A stretch of 64,000 nt of DNA from Exiguobacterium sp. J17977 (GTDB lineage Bacteria > Bacillota > Bacilli > Exiguobacteriales > Exiguobacteriaceae): NCBI RefSeq assembly GCF_018616375.1, contig NZ_JAEQBB010000004.1:186001-250000 (forward strand). Reading direction: 5' to 3'. The position numbers and the translations under genes were made by a program. The notes below the pieces were generated by a model. It was not told the origin of the DNA, ran no database searches, and saw only the letters and a program-made list of their open reading frames with translations. This document shows, piece after piece, positions 12,192 to 20,088 of this stretch (the first letter of the stretch is position 1; each line of letters opens with the position of its first letter).

Positions 12192-12341
12192 TTATTTCAC
12201 TTCGCGGTAAAGCGTGTGACGACGGAGACGTGGGTTGTATTTGCGCAATTCGAGGCGCTCTGGGTTGTTACGTTTGTTTTTCTTCGTGATGTACGTGCGA
12301 TCGCCTGTTTCTGTGCAAGCTAGTGTGATTTTAACGCGCAT
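12192..12341 (-). CDS. rpmG: 50S ribosomal protein L33, cysteine-poor (C-) form
   Basis: A 49-residue L33, beginning [11 protein letters not shown] and containing [16 protein letters not shown]. Zinc-binding L33 carries two CxxC pairs; here only one Cys remains (ACTE) and the second pair is replaced by NPRL, so this is the zinc-independent C- form. Such paralogues usually let cells spare zinc when Zur is derepressed, though no Zur box is obvious here. The GGGAG site and downstream terminator mark it as a single-gene unit. Confidence 0.93.
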
Positions 12342-12441
12342 TTCTTTCACTCCCATCTTACTAAATGTTGTATCAAGTGCTTTTGCTTTACAGTCTAAGC
12401 ATACTCAATTATCCTACCAATTTTTATTTGAAAAAGCAAGG

Positions 12442-14643
12442 TTATTTCGTGTTCTTTTTCAAACGTTTTTGCCCGTATGGCGAAGCATCGAGCGGCAGGC
12501 AGGTTTTTACGTTATCGCCTATCGCATAGCGCATTCCGACTTCCTCGGTCGATAGTTGTTCGCAGATGTACACCGTGTCGGCTTCAGCGAGGACGCTGTT
12601 CTCGATTCGGTGAATCGCGTCGAACAGACCGCCGTGTCCGTGCGGATTGCGGGTCGTTTCAAAGGACAACATAGTTGAGTATAACGGAACGTGTAGTGCT
12701 TTCGCAAGCGAACGTGCCGCAGGAATCGTCATCCAATCAAATTGATGGATCGCTTTTAACGTGACTTTGGTCACGAGCTCATGCACGAGTTTGACGTACG
12801 CCACGTTTTGGGCTGCGACTTGGTTCATCACGTGCTCCAAGAACGGGCTCGTCAGACGGACGCGATACACGTGGACGTGATTGTGACGTTCATATTCCGG
12901 CAACCCTTCCTTGAACGGGGTCAAGACGTACACTGTCTCACCTTCTGCCGCCCGGGCCTCGACTTCGTCGACGACACGGCGTCCGAGGTCACCGACGACG
13001 TTGCCCGTATATTCTGGCGTCAAGACGAGAATCGCCTCGCCTTCACTGCCACGTTCCTCGGTCACATAATAGTCGTGCGGAGACAGGAACGTGTCGATGT
13101 CAATGTCCACATCGTCAAGGAACGGGTACGCGCGATAATGATCGGCGAGCAATTCATCCGATAACTTGTCCTGATACAGTGCCGTCTCGAGCTCCGCGAA
13201 CAGGCGGGTATGCTCGCGGAAGCGTTCGGCCGCATATTGGGCCGTCGTCTGTCCGTCGAGGATGAAGGCCCAGTCACTCGATACGGCGAGGACGTAATGT
13301 CGCACGAGTTGGATGAGCGCCCGGTCGACGAGCGGTGAGGCGTGACGATAGTCGGCCACGTCTTTGACGAGTTGTGTCTCCATCATGTGCAAGTGGCGGA
13401 GCATCCATTCGTTACGCTCGTTGATCCACACATCACCAAAGCCTTTACGCCCCCATGTGTTCATCGAGACGTGGACCGTCTCGAGGTCTTGGAAGTGGCG
13501 CTCAAGGAACAGGGCCGGCGTGATCGTCTCAATCCCGAACTCTTCGAGTCGCTCGGCGACCTTGCCGAGGAATTCAGGCCCTTCAAACCACCAATGTCCG
13601 AACAATTCGGCATCGAACGGCGCCGTCACGAGGAACGGCGGGAACATTTGTCCACCATGGGCTTCGAGATGCCCTTCGAGCGTCTGCGCGAAATCGAGGG
13701 CGTGGTTGTCGATTTGATGTTCGGCCCAGGCACGGACATAATAGTCTTTTTCATCCGTGTCGCCCGTGATGCGGTGCATCTTCAGACCGGTATCAAAACG
13801 AATCCCTTCTGGATGCATGAACTTTTCGATATACGCCCAGTCGCGGTCATAGGCGAGGTCACGATAAAACTCGCGATAGTCTGGATGGCCCGGATAACCG
13901 ATCATCGAGCTCCAAATCTTCCCAGAGATGATTTGGTCACGCGGGAACAAGGCGACGCCATGTGGCGAGTAGACCGGTGCCCCGATTCCTTTGTCCGGTG
14001 TCGGATCGGCATCCAGTAGAGCGTGCTCATCGACGAACGTATAACGGACGCCTTCCTCGTACAAGATCCGATCGACCCCTGGCGTATAAGCGCATTCCGG
14101 CAACCAAATCCCGGTCGGACGGAACCCGTAATGGCGCTCGAAACAGTTCAGGCCGGTGCGGATTTCTGCACGGGCTGCCTGTTCTGTGAACAAGTGTGGG
14201 TTGAAGCCGTGCGTCGCCGTACACGTGACCATATCGATGAACCCTTGCTCACGATATGTACGGAACGCATGGTTCAAGTTCTTTTCCCAATGGAGGAACG
14301 TTGTTTTTAAATCGGTGTAACGCTGGCGATAAAAGTGGAGCGTCTCGACTTCCTGATCGCTCCGTTCTTCGGCGAGCTCGATGTCAATCAATTCAAGCAT
14401 CTCATCCAAATGTTCCACGTAGCGGTCCTGGACGAGCGGGTCGGCGAGCATCTCGACGACGGGCGGTGAGATACTGACCGTCCAATGGAGCGGACGCTGC
14501 AGACGGTCGACTTGCCACAGAATCGGGATATATGTCTCGGAGATGGCTTCATACACCCATCTCTCTTCTAAGCGATGTTTCTCTTCATGTCGCACGTACG
14601 GAAGGTGGGCATGAAGGACGAGTGAAAAATAACCTGGTTTCAT
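12442..14643 (-). CDS. GH57 alpha-glucan branching-type enzyme fused to an N-terminal half of a GT-B glycosyltransferase
   Basis: A 733-residue fusion. Residues 1-530 are a GH57/DUF1957 branching-type domain: HAHLPYVRH at 11-19, WLPE with the nucleophile Glu near 183, and PFDAELFGHWWFEG with the acid Asp near 344. These enzymes cut alpha-1,4 glucans and form alpha-1,6 branches. Residues 537-718 resemble the N-terminal Rossmann half of glycogen-synthase-like GT4/GT5 enzymes: LTPEYTGNVVGDLG, a VYVLTP strand, HQFDWMTIPAARSLAKAL and a late EADTVYICEQ. The nucleotide-sugar-binding C-terminal half is missing, and only about 100 bases separate the stop from rpmG. The ATG at 14643 follows GAGGAGG. 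It is translated 14 bases after a DUF4912 gene. Confidence 0.85.
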   Translation of the reverse strand: MKPGYFSLVLHAHLPYVRHEEKHRLEERWVYEAISETYIPILWQVDRLQRPLHWTVSISPPVVEMLADPLVQDRYVEHLDEMLELIDIELAEERSDQEVETLHFYRQRYTDLKTTFLHWEKNLNHAFRTYREQGFIDMVTCTATHGFNPHLFTEQAARAEIRTGLNCFERHYGFRPTGIWLPECAYTPGVDRILYEEGVRYTFVDEHALLDADPTPDKGIGAPVYSPHGVALFPRDQIISGKIWSSMIGYPGHPDYREFYRDLAYDRDWAYIEKFMHPEGIRFDTGLKMHRITGDTDEKDYYVRAWAEHQIDNHALDFAQTLEGHLEAHGGQMFPPFLVTAPFDAELFGHWWFEGPEFLGKVAERLEEFGIETITPALFLERHFQDLETVHVSMNTWGRKGFGDVWINERNEWMLRHLHMMETQLVKDVADYRHASPLVDRALIQLVRHYVLAVSSDWAFILDGQTTAQYAAERFREHTRLFAELETALYQDKLSDELLADHYRAYPFLDDVDIDIDTFLSPHDYYVTEERGSEGEAILVLTPEYTGNVVGDLGRRVVDEVEARAAEGETVYVLTPFKEGLPEYERHNHVHVYRVRLTSPFLEHVMNQVAAQNVAYVKLVHELVTKVTLKAIHQFDWMTIPAARSLAKALHVPLYSTMLSFETTRNPHGHGGLFDAIHRIENSVLAEADTVYICEQLSTEEVGMRYAIGDNVKTCLPLDASPYGQKRLKKNTK

Positions 14644-14657
14644 CAAATAAATCCTCC

Positions 14658-15428
14658 TCAGCGCACGAATCGGTATGCAGAATATTTAGGTAGCGTGTCG
14701 AGCAGTTCAGGAGACTCGACTTCCCCGTATTGCCAACGACGCACCGGTTCGGCGAAACGGCCATGGCCGGCCGGCTCCGCACGTGGCGTATCAATCGGTG
14801 CGGATGCGAGCAACGGAAGGAACTCCCCTTCCATCGTCCGAATCCCAAACTCGAATACATACGTCGTGTTCGGGTCGAGTGGTCGAACGAACCAACTGTT
14901 CGTCATCTCCGGCAATTCGAACGTATACGACCGGTTCGCATGTCCGCTCGCATAATCGAGTAACGTGATGTCGAGGATCCGGAACGCCTTCGGCAAATCT
15001 TCCCAAGGGCGCATGAACTGCATCGATAACGTCTTTTTGACGCTATCCGATACTTCCCAAAAGACGTAAACGGCGTTCGGCGATTGGACGACGGCATGCA
15101 TCAAATCTTGATCATAGCGGTCTGGAAGCTTCCAAAACCCATCTGGACCTTTAGCTAACAGCGGTGATTGGACTGGCTGCTCATGTTGCAGCGTCGAAGC
15201 GACCTGCGTCCCGGATGAGGCGGGTACTTGCTTCGATTTCGGTGTCATAGCTTTCTTCCCTTCGGTCTTTCGTTTTGGAGCGGCGGTTACCGGCTTGGCT
15301 GGTTCACCGTGTTGGGAACGCCATTTGCGCCAAGCATACTGCACTTTCCCAATTGGCATATCTAATTGTTCTGCAATCTGTTTTAACGTTAGTCCTTGTT
15401 GTTTCAAGGAAAAGATTTTCTCTTCCAT
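14658..15428 (-). CDS. DUF4912 domain protein with N-terminal helix-turn-helix
   Basis: A 256-residue protein in three parts. Residues 1-40 form a sigma-region-4-like helix-turn-helix (LKQQGLTLKQIAEQLDMPIG then VQYAWRKWR). A Lys/Pro/Thr-rich linker of about 50 residues follows. The rest is DUF4912, starting near LPDRYDQDLMHAVVQSPNAV and containing VFWEVSD and FVRPLDPNTTYVFEFG, which looks like a fibronectin/carbohydrate-binding-like beta sandwich. The family has no established function. It is the first gene of a two-gene operon with the GH57 fusion, so a role in glucan binding or in sensing stored glucan is a reasonable guess. Confidence 0.75.
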   Translation of the reverse strand: MEEKIFSLKQQGLTLKQIAEQLDMPIGKVQYAWRKWRSQHGEPAKPVTAAPKRKTEGKKAMTPKSKQVPASSGTQVASTLQHEQPVQSPLLAKGPDGFWKLPDRYDQDLMHAVVQSPNAVYVFWEVSDSVKKTLSMQFMRPWEDLPKAFRILDITLLDYASGHANRSYTFELPEMTNSWFVRPLDPNTTYVFEFGIRTMEGEFLPLLASAPIDTPRAEPAGHGRFAEPVRRWQYGEVESPELLDTLPKYSAYRFVR

Positions 15429-15547: not shown

Positions 15548-16210
15548 TTACTGGTTTAAATCATAATGTTTCCCTTTTTCGAGGAAAATGAGGTGTTCGC
15601 CGAAATTCGTCACGTGATCGCCCATCCGCTCCAAGTAGCGGGCGATGTTCGAAAACTCATAGACATCGTTCGTCCCGACAGCCATCGTCGGCACAGACCC
15701 CATATATTGTTTAATGACCTGTAAGTTCAAGTCATCGATGACTTTGTCCATCTCGTTCAAGTCACGCACCCGGCTGACCTCACCTTTCCGGTAGGCGCGC
15801 GTCGCGAGCTCGAGCATGTCAATCAATTGCTCGGCCATCTGTTTGAGCGGCTTGATATCTAACACGTACGGGACGTGCTCGATACGCGCAACGGCTTTGG
15901 CGATGTTCGTCGCATAGTCCGCGATGCGCTCAAGGTCTGTCGCCGACTTCATCGTCACAATCAAGCGGCGAAGATCGGTCGCGACCGGTTGTTGTTTCGC
16001 AATCAACAGAATCGCCTCGTCATTGATTTCGAGCTCGAGGTCATCGAGTTCGTTATCGTTGTCGATGACCGTCTGCGCGAGTACGAGATCATGTTTTTCA
16101 AGCACTTCGATGGCCGTGGCCGTTTGACGCATCGTCAAATTCGCCAAGCGAACGACCTTATCTTCTAATTCGTTTAACTTCGTATCAAAAAATGTGCGAT
16201 TTTGTGCCAT
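15548..16210 (-). CDS. phoU: Phosphate-specific transport regulator PhoU
   Basis: A 220-residue all-helical protein with two PhoU repeats. Each carries the metal-binding E-x-x-x-D signature: DLERIADYATNIAK in the first repeat and YLERMGDHVTNFGE in the second. PhoU binds the Pst transporter and the phosphate-sensing kinase and restrains phosphate uptake. It is the last gene of pstS-pstC-pstA-pstB-phoU, 15 bases after pstB. B. subtilis has no phoU at this position but has a second pstB, so this operon is closer to the common bacterial arrangement. Confidence 0.95.
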   Translation of the reverse strand: MAQNRTFFDTKLNELEDKVVRLANLTMRQTATAIEVLEKHDLVLAQTVIDNDNELDDLELEINDEAILLIAKQQPVATDLRRLIVTMKSATDLERIADYATNIAKAVARIEHVPYVLDIKPLKQMAEQLIDMLELATRAYRKGEVSRVRDLNEMDKVIDDLNLQVIKQYMGSVPTMAVGTNDVYEFSNIARYLERMGDHVTNFGEHLIFLEKGKHYDLNQ

Positions 16211-16225
16211 GATTGTCTCCCCTTC

Positions 16226-17059
16226 TTAACCGAACCGGCCAGAAATATAATCTTCAGTCCGTTTGTCCGTTGGATTCGAGAAGATTTTATCGGTCGCGTC
16301 AAACTCGACGACTTCTCCGTTCAAGAAGAACGCCGTCTTATCCGACACGCGAGCCGCTTGTTGCATGTTGTGTGTGACGATGATAATCGAGTATTGCTCT
16401 TTCAACTCTTGGACGAGCTCTTCGACTTTAAGTGTCGAGATTGGATCGAGTGCTGACGTCGGCTCATCCATGAGGATGACGTCCGGTTCGATGGCGAGTG
16501 TGCGGGCGATACAGAGACGTTGCTGCTGTCCACCTGAAAGACCATAGGCGTTCTCGTTCAAGCGATCTTTCACTTCATCCCAGATTGCGGCGCCGCGAAG
16601 CGAGCGCTCCACGATTTCATCGAGTACTTTTTTGTTTTTGATGCCGTGTGTCCGCGGCCCGTACGCGACGTTGTCATACACCGATTTCGGGAATGGGTTC
16701 GGCTGTTGGAACACCATGCCGACCGACGTACGGAGATCTTCGACTTTATAATCGCGGTCGAAGATATTGCGGCCGTGATACAAGATTTCACCGTTCGTTC
16801 GGACAGACGGTACGAGCTCGACCATCCGGTTCAACGTCTTGATGAACGTCGACTTCCCACAACCCGACGGACCGATGATGGCCGTCACTTCGTTCTTCTT
16901 GATGTCGAGGTTGACGTCAATCAACGCCTGATCGTCGCCGTACCATAAATTCAAGTTGTTTACGACATAGGCACTGTCTTTTTGCATCACCGTTTCGTTC
17001 GGTTGAGTCGTCGTTGTATTCACTTCATGATCTCCTTTGAGTTCTTTTTGTTTCATCAT
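16226..17059 (-). CDS. pstB: Phosphate ABC transporter ATP-binding protein PstB
   Basis: A 277-residue ABC ATPase. Walker A is GPSGCGKST, followed by the PstB-specific LNRMVELVP; the Q-loop is [16 protein letters not shown], the signature [16 protein letters not shown], Walker [14 protein letters not shown] and the switch His in VTHNMQQA. It drives PstCA phosphate import. An N-terminal extension of about 25 polar residues precedes the ABC core. The ATG at 17059 follows GAGGAGG. It lies 31 bases after pstA. Confidence 0.96.
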
Positions 17060-17090
17060 CTCGAGAGTCCTCCTCGTTACCTGCTACGAC

Positions 17091-18002
17091 TTAATGTCGG
17101 TTCGTGTACTTGTTGCGGATATAGATGGCAGCCGAGTTCATGATGATCAACATCGTCATCAAGACAATGATTCCGGCAGCAGCCAAGTTTTGGAATTCAG
17201 CTTGCGGACGGCTCGTCCAGTTGTAGATTTGAATCGGGAGCGCTGTGAAATCAGAGAACACATTGCTCGGCGTCGTCGAAATGAACGTCGCCGCACCGAC
17301 CATAATCAATGGAGCGGTCTCTCCGATGGCACGCGATACGGCCAAAATGATTCCCGTGATAATCCCTGGAATCGCCGACGGCAAAACGACGTTGAACGTC
17401 GTCTGCCATTTCGAGGCTCCAAGTGCGAGCGAAGCGTGACGTAATTCCATCTTGACGGAACGGAGCGCTTCTTGTGACGCGACGATGACAATCGGTAAAC
17501 TCATCAGCCCAAGCGTCAAGGCACCGGCCATAATCGAGTTGCCGAGTTCCATTACACGCACAAAAATCGTCAATCCGAGCAATCCGAAAACGATTGACGG
17601 AACACCAGCCAAGTTCGAAATATTTACTTCGATAAATGACGTGACACGGTTTTTTGGCGCGTACTCTTCAAGATAAATCGCGGCACCAACACCGACGATA
17701 AATACCATCGGCACGATGAGGAACATCAACCATAACGTCCCGATCAAGGCTGGATAGAGACCGGCCTGTTCCGGACGGCGGGATGGGAAGTTGCGGAGGA
17801 AGTCCAAGTTCACCCAGCCGCCACCTTTAGAGACGACGTCATAAATCAATGTCGATAGGACGAGCAGGGCAAAGACGAGTCCTGCTAAAAAGACGTACTT
17901 AAAGATTTCATTTAATTGGAGACGACGTTTAATCCGTTGTGAAACGGAATCACGGTCCATCAAGTTCTTCGTATTCTTGAACTCACTGTTCGGCAATGCC
18001 AT
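17091..18002 (-). CDS. pstA: Phosphate ABC transporter permease PstA
   Basis: A 303-residue permease with six hydrophobic segments and the conserved cytoplasmic EAA-type loop (SQEALRSVKMELRHASLALGA). The family motifs YLEEYAPKNR and ISNLAGVPSIVFGLLGL are present. It forms the membrane channel with PstC. Only one base separates it from pstC, so translation is likely coupled. Confidence 0.95.
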   Translation of the reverse strand: MALPNSEFKNTKNLMDRDSVSQRIKRRLQLNEIFKYVFLAGLVFALLVLSTLIYDVVSKGGGWVNLDFLRNFPSRRPEQAGLYPALIGTLWLMFLIVPMVFIVGVGAAIYLEEYAPKNRVTSFIEVNISNLAGVPSIVFGLLGLTIFVRVMELGNSIMAGALTLGLMSLPIVIVASQEALRSVKMELRHASLALGASKWQTTFNVVLPSAIPGIITGIILAVSRAIGETAPLIMVGAATFISTTPSNVFSDFTALPIQIYNWTSRPQAEFQNLAAAGIIVLMTMLIIMNSAAIYIRNKYTNRH

Positions 18003-18003
18003 A

Positions 18004-18948
18004 TTAGTACTCCTCTCTGAAGCGGCGCGTCACCCAGTTCGCGAATAAGTTCATCACAAGGGTGAAGACGAACAACAATGCGCCGACCGCATAGATGCTA
18101 TAGTATTCGATTGTCCCGTAGCCTGCATCACCTTTGGCGATTTGGACGATATAAGCCGTCATCGTTTGAATCGCGTTCAGCGGGTTGAACTCGAAGTTCG
18201 GTTGTGACCCACCGGCGATTGTCACGATCATCGTCTCACCGATGGCACGGCTCATCCCAAGGACGATTGAGGCGATAATCCCTGACAGCGCGGCCGGCAT
18301 GACGACTTTGATGGCAACTTCCAAACGCGTTGCGCCAAGGCCGAGCGCACCTTCGCGAATCTTTTTCGGAACGGCGCTCATCGCGTCTTCCGAAATCGAT
18401 GCAATCATTGGGATAATCATAATCCCGACGACAATCCCCGGACTAAGCGCGTTATAAATCTTTAATCCAGGAATGAGCGCTTGCAAGATTGGTGTGACGA
18501 ACGACAAGGCGAAAAATCCGAAGACAATCGTCGGTACACCGGCGAGTACTTCAAGAATCGGCTTCAAAATCGTGCGAGCACGTTCAGACGCATATTCGCT
18601 CAAATAAATCGCTGACGCCAAACCAAGCGGTACAGCAACAATCATGGCAATGACCGTAATCTGGAGCGTCCCCATGACGAGGGCCCAGACGCCGAAACGT
18701 TGATCGGCACTAAGCGGATACCATTCCGTCGAGCCTAAAAACTCGGCGACCGGTACGCGCTCAAAGAACTTGAACAGTTCGAAACCGAGTGTGAACGCGA
18801 TGCCGACAGTCGTGACGACCGAAACGAATGCGCTCAAGAATAATAAGAACGGCATGACTTTATCAAACACGTTCGTCGTACTGTATTTCTTTTTCTTATT
18901 GGTTTCAATCATCTCTCGAATTGAGAACCCTTTGTTTGGTTGATTCAT
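18004..18948 (-). CDS. pstC: Phosphate ABC transporter permease PstC
   Basis: A 314-residue permease with six hydrophobic segments. The motifs YLSEYASERARTILKP, LEVLAGVPTIVFGFFAL and the EAA loop SAVPKKIREGALGLGATRLE identify PstC. It pairs with PstA to carry phosphate delivered by PstS. It follows pstS after 83 bases that contain a stable hairpin. Confidence 0.95.
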   Translation of the reverse strand: MNQPNKGFSIREMIETNKKKKYSTTNVFDKVMPFLLFLSAFVSVVTTVGIAFTLGFELFKFFERVPVAEFLGSTEWYPLSADQRFGVWALVMGTLQITVIAMIVAVPLGLASAIYLSEYASERARTILKPILEVLAGVPTIVFGFFALSFVTPILQALIPGLKIYNALSPGIVVGIMIIPMIASISEDAMSAVPKKIREGALGLGATRLEVAIKVVMPAALSGIIASIVLGMSRAIGETMIVTIAGGSQPNFEFNPLNAIQTMTAYIVQIAKGDAGYGTIEYYSIYAVGALLFVFTLVMNLFANWVTRRFREEY

Positions 18949-18991
18949 CTCGTGTATCGCTCCCTACCTCTTCATACTAGAAAGCACGGCG

Positions 18992-19018
18992 AGAAGGCGA
19001 GAGCGACTCTCACCTTCT
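18992..19018 (-). terminator. Intercistronic hairpin between pstS and pstC
   Basis: A 12-bp stem (AGAAGGTGAGAG / CTCTCGCCTTCT, one G-U pair) with a 3-base loop and no T-run lies between pstS and pstC. Such structures partly terminate or stabilise the pstS message, so the binding protein is made in excess over the permeases. Confidence 0.6.
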
Positions 19019-19031
19019 GCCTTCTGCGCTA

Positions 19032-19967
19032 TTATTCGCCAGCAATCTCGTCGATTACTTCAGCGTTCTCATCATATCGTGCTTGTTCCATTCCGACATA
19101 TCCAACTTCTTCTGAAAGGGCTGCTGCATTTTCATTCAAGAAGCGTGTGTAGTCGGCGACTTGTGGCTTGTCTTTCAATGACGCGTTGTTCACGTACGTG
19201 TAAATCTCACGTGAGAGCGGGTAAGACAAATCGTTGATTGTATCAGTCGTCGGCTCGATGCCTTCGACGTTCAACGCGCGAAGCGTATCTTGGTTTTCAA
19301 TGTAGTATGCGTATCCGAAGAATCCGATTGCACCTTTCGTACCAGCGACACCTGTCACGAGGACGTTATCGTCTTCTGACAACTGCGCGTCTTGACGAAT
19401 GTCCGTGTCTTCAAGGACCGCTTCGTTGAAGAAATCGAACGTACCTGAGTCTTTACCTGGTGAGAAGAATGAGATTTCTTCATCCGGCCAGTCTGAGCGG
19501 ACGTCTTTCCATGTCTTCACGTTCGTGTCTGTCCACATCTTGTTGAGCTCTTCGATTGTGATATCTTGTGCCCAATCGTTTTCTGGGTTGACAACAAGTG
19601 AGAGACCATCGAGTGCGACAGCAAGTTGCGTGTACTCAATTCCGTTCTCTTCGGCTTCTGCTGCCTCTTCTTCTTTGATTTCACGTGATGCGTTCGAGAA
19701 ATCAGTCTCGCCTGTTACGAAACGTTTGAATCCGCCACCAGTACCAGAGACACCGACCGTGACTTCAACGTCTGGCTGTTCAGCTGAATATTCTTCGGCT
19801 ACGGCTTCCATGATCGGGAAGACTGTTGACGAACCGTCCATGACGACTTTACCTGAAAGTCCTTCACCGTCGGCTGCGCCACCTTCTTCATTGTTCCCAC
19901 ACGCGGCACCGATAATGGCCACCGAAGTAATTGAAGCGACTAAAGCTGATTTTTTCATCCAAGACAT
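19032..19967 (-). CDS. pstS: Phosphate-binding lipoprotein PstS
   Basis: A 311-residue extracellular phosphate-binding protein. The lipoprotein signal ends in IGAAC, so Cys is the lipid anchor. Phosphate-site motifs are DGSSTVFPI, SGTGGGFKRF, ANASREIK-like TDFSNASREI and PGKDSGTFDFF. The ATG at 19967 follows AAGGAGG; a longer in-frame form would lack a signal peptide. It is first in the pst operon, directly downstream of a six-repeat Pho box. Confidence 0.96.
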   Translation of the reverse strand: MSWMKKSALVASITSVAIIGAACGNNEEGGAADGEGLSGKVVMDGSSTVFPIMEAVAEEYSAEQPDVEVTVGVSGTGGGFKRFVTGETDFSNASREIKEEEAAEAEENGIEYTQLAVALDGLSLVVNPENDWAQDITIEELNKMWTDTNVKTWKDVRSDWPDEEISFFSPGKDSGTFDFFNEAVLEDTDIRQDAQLSEDDNVLVTGVAGTKGAIGFFGYAYYIENQDTLRALNVEGIEPTTDTINDLSYPLSREIYTYVNNASLKDKPQVADYTRFLNENAAALSEEVGYVGMEQARYDENAEVIDEIAGE

Positions 19968-20027
19968 TTCTGACGTCCTCCTTGAGTTTGCTTTGATTTG
20001 TGTTGTGGCTTCGTTGTTCTGTCCTAC

Positions 20028-20088
20028 AATTAACATCCTAATAAACTACTATTAACGAGAAATAAACGGAACGTAAAAGAATTGTAAA
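20028..20088 (-). promoter_or_regulatory. Pho box array upstream of pstS
   Basis: On the minus strand six hexamers of the form TT(T/A)ANN occur at exact 11-base steps: TTTACA, TTTACG, TTTATT, TTAATA, TTATTA and TTAATT. This is the PhoP box pattern TT(A/C/T)A(C/T)A-N5 of Bacillus phosphate-starvation promoters. The first two repeats are the best matches. The array starts just after the pbpA terminator and ends about 60 bases before the pstS start codon. Confidence 0.85.

Follow-up and report, generated by a model that had tools for sequence, protein, structure and literature searches.

A truncated GH57:GT4 fusion protein of Exiguobacteriaceae that retains half of a GT-B glycosyltransferase

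The locus and its half glycosyltransferase

The window is a stretch of 64,000 nucleotides from a contig of Exiguobacterium sp. J17977, and all coordinates below are positions within it. One of its genes encodes a GH57 domain followed by half of a GT-B glycosyltransferase (GT). The gene is read on the minus strand (14643 -> 12442), which the first-pass annotation had not stated; it starts with ATG at 14643, or alternatively with TTG at 14646, and the plus strand across 12442-14643 contains many stops. The gene, its parts and its neighbors are as follows:

12442..14643, minus strand: GH57/half-GT4 gene, an open frame of 733 aa plus stop, kept in 38/38 Exiguobacteriaceae genomes
13099..14643, minus strand: GH57 catalytic domain and BE_C helical domain, residues 1-515 (PF03065, PF09210; AmyC 2b5d, E=9.5e-117; invariant residues)
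14097-14095, minus strand: codon of the predicted nucleophile E183, GH57 domain
13614-13612, minus strand: codon of the predicted acid/base D344, GH57 domain
13036..13098, minus strand: linker, residues 516-536, separating both domains in alignments
12490..13035, minus strand: N-terminal (acceptor-side) half of a GT4/GT-B enzyme, residues 537-718 (hhalign E=2.5e-27; fold matches to MshA, GlgM and glycogen synthase; motifs eroded)
12445..12489, minus strand: short variable tail, residues 719-733, where full-length relatives in alignments run on into the donor half
14658..15428, minus strand: DUF4912 gene, 256 aa with an HTH-like N-terminus (PF16258, E=5.1e-22), the upstream partner, 14 bp ahead of the GH57 ATG
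12192..12356, minus strand: rpmG, ribosomal protein L33 (PF00471), closing the presumed deletion junction

Within the 733-aa protein, Pfam places GH57 at residues 8-319 and BE_C at 417-515. In almost every relative examined, fused or not, the DUF4912 gene adjoins the GH57 gene, and its product might serve the GH57 enzyme as regulator or partner. A helix-turn-helix-like segment at the N-terminus of the DUF4912 protein (weak Pfam matches) occurs in several relatives and is missing in others (e.g. L104). Farther upstream, at 15548-20036, phoU and pst phosphate-transport-like genes share the strand of the DUF4912/GH57 pair; they were identified by eye from their translations.

The Pfam GT4 N-domain falls just below threshold at residues 554-694 (PF13579, E=1.6e-6; score 29.0 bits, cut-off 29.7). 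Profile comparison is clearer: an hhalign profile of the Exiguobacteriaceae module matches the N-halves of full-length GH57:GT4 fusions with 99.8% probability (E=2.5e-27, 183 columns), and those N-halves have sequence matches to GlgA, GlgM and MshA of solved structure. Taken by itself, a profile of the truncated halves gave no significant match to a solved GT (3c4q came nearest among GTs, E=0.65), so the sequence link from module to solved GT runs via the full-length fusions. Structure prediction and fold search of the half domain, as the first-pass annotation had proposed, gave a GT-B N-domain fold and no different fold. The AlphaFold2 model of residues 525-733 (pLDDT 60, pTM 0.56) was used for fold search only; its best matches were MshA, GlgM, Pyrococcus glycogen synthase and sucrose-phosphate synthase, with Foldseek E values as low as 1.7e-7 and, across 164-185 residues, Z scores of about 15-17. 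The fold of residues 534-724 corresponds to the N-terminal domain of MshA (3c48), GlgM (6tvp) and Pyrococcus GlgA (3l01), which unlike the Exiguobacterium module are complete two-domain enzymes. A model of the full protein, built from 15 close sequences, was poor (pLDDT 47). Together the profile-profile and fold matches identify residues 537-718 as the acceptor-side Rossmann half of a GT-B enzyme, in agreement with the first-pass annotation.

That annotation had also held that the nucleotide-sugar half is missing and cannot fit before rpmG, and this is borne out. The C-terminal nucleotide-sugar domain with its E-x7-E motif is absent from the open frame and from the 85 nt between its stop codon and rpmG, which lies directly downstream in 30/30 Exiguobacteriaceae loci measured (gap 84-111 bp). 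No orphan donor half was found in the genome: all 11 Glycos_transf_1 matches sit in frames of 369-807 aa, which leaves room for an N-half of their own.

Full-length relatives and a truncated clade

Relatives were surveyed in 398 Bacilli genomes, 38 of them from Exiguobacteriaceae (two genera), and in a phylum-wide sample. The short form was present in all 38 Exiguobacteriaceae genomes, at 727-733 aa where read out and up to 818 aa with an upstream start. The complete GT-B that the proposed survey of GH57 relatives was meant to look for does exist: a full GH57:GT4 fusion of about 870-975 aa was found in 73 sampled Bacilli genomes from 16 families, and it is also widespread in other Bacillota. 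Among the matches listed for the phylum-wide sample, those extending past residue 700 lie in frames of >900 aa. The fusions are colinear with the whole 733 aa and follow the same upstream DUF4912 gene, but they keep a complete GT4, including the EPFGIVALE donor motif, whereas the Exiguobacterium protein lacks the donor half. The nearest full-length relatives (L140, L141; 928 and 932 aa) are 46% identical and have this motif intact.

In a maximum-likelihood tree of the GH57 domain, ten truncated forms made one clade (100/100), placed beside three Bacilli fusions (100/100) and well away from stand-alone GH57 proteins. The whole colinear protein and its DUF4912 neighbor share common descent with the GH57:GT4 fusion lineage. 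Given the truncation in all 38 genomes, the single clade and the presence of rpmG in every locus read, the simplest reading of the sequences is one ancient deletion rather than a broken copy. The first-pass annotation had named as its own refutation the case in which relatives carry the complete GT and this copy is simply truncated. Relatives do carry it, in 73 Bacilli genomes, but ‘simply truncated’ is not a full account, since all 38 genomes share the truncation, the truncated forms make one clade at 100/100, and the remaining half is under purifying selection.

In many fusion-bearing genomes the next gene downstream encodes a sugar nucleotidyltransferase, which in most cases also carries a fused phosphomutase domain, and in some a GH15 glucoamylase-like gene then follows. 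The relatives’ operon order is accordingly DUF4912, GH57:GT4, nucleotidyltransferase(:phosphomutase) and sometimes GH15 (L140, L141, L104, L106, L147 and others). Unlike this operon, the Exiguobacterium locus has no GT donor half, nucleotidyltransferase(:phosphomutase) or GH15; the donor half and downstream genes may have been lost by a single deletion. The fusion with its nucleotidyltransferase, phosphomutase and GH15 looks, from gene content, like a self-contained alpha-glucan pathway of mostly GlgA-less Bacilli, of which we found no description in the open papers that we searched.

Two other kinds of change were seen among the relatives. Two full GH57:GT4 genes (L075 in G049, L135 in G073) are apparently split by a frameshift within the GT half, which could be sequencing error or recent loss. 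At five Bacilli loci (L145, L146, L152, L153, L155) the GH57 catalytic Glu and/or Asp is lost, a mirror-image decay in which the GT4 motifs, including EPFGIVALE, are intact in all but one; GH13 GlgB is present in both of the mirror-decay genomes checked (G413, G251). A scan of viral contigs returned one short GH57 fragment and was of no use.

A GH57 subfamily analysis mentions no GT fusion (PMC6037648), and part of a review of prokaryotic alpha-glucan enzymes (PMC11046441) describes archaeal GT4 genes clustered with GH57, with no such fusion mentioned in that part. Our search of the open literature found no description of the GH57:GT4 fusion; this is weak evidence, as subscription papers and database annotations were outside its scope. 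In mycobacteria, Rv3032 is an alpha-glucan GT. Its likeness to the fusion, by description, is that it and Rv3031, a GH57 protein (PMC6629080), are thought to act on one alpha-glucan, but the two are separate genes rather than fused.

Branching-enzyme features and glycogen genes

The GH57 domain had been described from sequence as active-looking, with Glu near 183 and Asp near 344; E183 and D344 fall exactly there and are invariant in the alignment of truncated and full-length relatives. The closest solved structure is AmyC of Thermotoga maritima (PDB 2b5d), which has been shown to be a glycogen-branching enzyme (PMC6616209). Its E185/D349 align with E183/D344, and its H10, the Cys after the nucleophile, W29, W402 and W411 have identical aligned residues here. 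AmyC also shares the GH57 core, BE_C and a short catalytic loop with the Exiguobacterium protein but, unlike it, has no C-terminal GT module. Of the branching-enzyme fingerprint, C184 (in PEC) adjoins the nucleophile and is invariant, a Cys in this position being a criterion for GH57 branching enzymes (PMC6616209); the aromatic gatekeepers W29, W397 and W406 (AmyC W29, W402, W411) are present, as is the BE_C helical domain (PF09210, 72.1 bits, cut-off 25). Absent is the catalytic-loop tyrosine (Thermus Y236, AmyC Y220), with K218 at that position. This Tyr is linked to branching in Thermus yet is not invariant among branching enzymes (PMC6616209). As a supporting and not strictly defining feature, its absence would lower, and does not exclude, membership among GH57 branching enzymes; with K218 and a short AmyC-type loop, the Exiguobacterium enzyme may hydrolyse as much as branch.

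The genome carries glgC-glgD-glgA-glgP in a row, without glgB and with a penicillin-binding-protein gene upstream on the opposite strand. GlgA was above cut-off in 38/38 Exiguobacteriaceae genomes, and the GH13 branching-enzyme (GlgB) model in 0/38. Since a TIGR01515 search at E<=1e-60 did not list its Bacillus subtilis control, that search was not relied on alone and the GH13 proteins were classified one by one. The GH13 matches in this genome are proteins of phosphotrehalase-like, amylase, maltodextrin glucosidase and type I pullulanase kinds, with one further 689-aa protein that has only a weak GH13 match and is left unclassified; none of the GH13 proteins found was classed as a branching enzyme. 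GlgA in every genome together with the lack of GlgB makes the GH57 protein the best candidate for, and likely, the only glycogen-branching enzyme of Exiguobacterium.

Among Bacilli, GlgA occurs in 8/73 fusion-bearing genomes and in 124/287 others (Fisher p=7e-8, uncorrected for relatedness), against 38/38 of those with the truncated form. This distribution is consistent with a GT4 that stands in for GlgA and can be dispensed with once GlgA is present. As the sole cause of GT loss, the presence of GlgA is weakened by the eight genomes with both GlgA and the GT4 fusion (G692, among the closest full-length relatives, G731 and six others), and the truncation is a single event.

Fate of the half domain

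In the fusions, the divergence of the GT N-half relative to that of GH57 is about 1.0 (log-identity ratio; 0.8-1.1 except for one single-pair bin); the same ratio is 2.9-3.3 in the truncated forms. Identity between the two Exiguobacteriaceae genera is 70-73% in GH57 and 31-34% in the half. Forty residues are invariant in 18 full-length N-halves; 33 of these are not kept in all truncated forms, the seven that are being G568, N613, H633, P653, E662, R665 and E681. Most residues of the HAHDW and TIHATE motifs are lost. Genus 1 has Leu in place of the TIHATE histidine and a partly changed GGL acceptor loop; in genus 2 the histidine position holds Tyr in most cases and the loop is deleted. The dN/dS of the half is about 0.03-0.11; for close pairs it is 0.03-0.10, versus 0.02-0.03 in GH57 (values for distant pairs, with dS saturated, are indicative only). 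In 38 genomes no stop was found within the module, the stops seen being confined to the final few residues of the match. Loss of the motifs combined with low dN/dS points to a module dead as a GT yet maintained: a fast-changing but selected remnant that is, as predicted from its residues, catalytically dead. The first-pass annotation had proposed a use of a GT fragment not known to be described; what we find is the remnant of a complete enzyme and not a new recruit, though it is old, fixed and selected.

A structural stub on a branching enzyme is the explanation that we consider probable overall. The ancestor would have been a bifunctional GH57:GT4 protein, its GT4 elongating an alpha-glucan and its GH57 branching the same glucan. 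The ancestor of Exiguobacteriaceae would have lost the donor-binding half of the GT4 through a deletion that, in the simplest case, also removed the downstream nucleotidyltransferase(:phosphomutase) gene and brought the remaining gene up against rpmG. Elongation would have been taken over by GlgC-GlgD-GlgA encoded elsewhere, leaving the GH57 domain as glycogen-branching enzyme in a genome without GH13 GlgB. The half GT-B may have been kept because GH57 had evolved against it; it would then cover or stabilise a GH57 surface, or hold DUF4912 or other partners in place. Between the glucan-binding and scaffolding roles suggested earlier for the half domain, the changed or deleted GGL loop and the mostly lost HAHDW and TIHATE motifs lend little to glucan binding by an acceptor half, and we prefer a scaffolding or structural role.

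Purifying selection on the half also suits its repurposing as a specific accessory module: glucan, GlgA or DUF4912 would be its binding partner, and its task would be to position the branching enzyme. Block 651-681 (PLYSTMLSFETTRNPHGHGGLFDAIHRIE) hardly varies within genus 1, and N607, Q608, F635, G671, G672 and R679, rare or variable in fusions, are new invariants in both genera. We nevertheless think repurposing rather unlikely, for the genera share only about a third of the module’s residues, genus 2 has no acceptor loop, and the new invariants may merely reflect refolding of an exposed cleft. That the dead half became a dedicated glucan- or partner-binding scaffold of the family’s sole branching enzyme, after GlgCDA took over elongation, we entertain only as a tentative possibility. 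A slowly decaying, passive relic without a role would accord with the three-fold faster divergence and the loss of most GT invariants, but is improbable in view of dN/dS of about 0.1 or lower, a module free of internal stops in 38 genomes, and conservation of both its end point and its core residues.

Because GT-B enzymes consist of two Rossmann halves, the half might pair in trans with the product of a separate donor-half gene to form an active enzyme. We regard this as very improbable: a separate donor half was looked for in the genome and not found, every Glycos_transf_1 frame having room for its own N-half, and TIHATE and HAHDW residues are lost from the half at hand. Sequencing error or a recent frameshift in this genome, of the kind seen in some fusion genes, has next to no chance of being right and is refuted by 38 genomes from two genera that share the truncation, rpmG being the next gene downstream at each locus measured. 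The structural stub is the reading that we retain.

For the family, all 38 sampled genomes of which appear to make glycogen with a GT5 synthase and without GH13 GlgB, the finding bears on annotation: GH57 genes were reported in 186/187 Exiguobacterium strains and listed as starch-degrading (PMC13233415), and the protein so listed is probably the family’s branching enzyme. The gene is also a natural experiment on what becomes of half a GT-B after loss of the other half: its rate rose three-fold and its motifs went, while its fold was kept. Relatives offer the mirror image, in which the GT is intact and the GH57 catalytic residues are lost.
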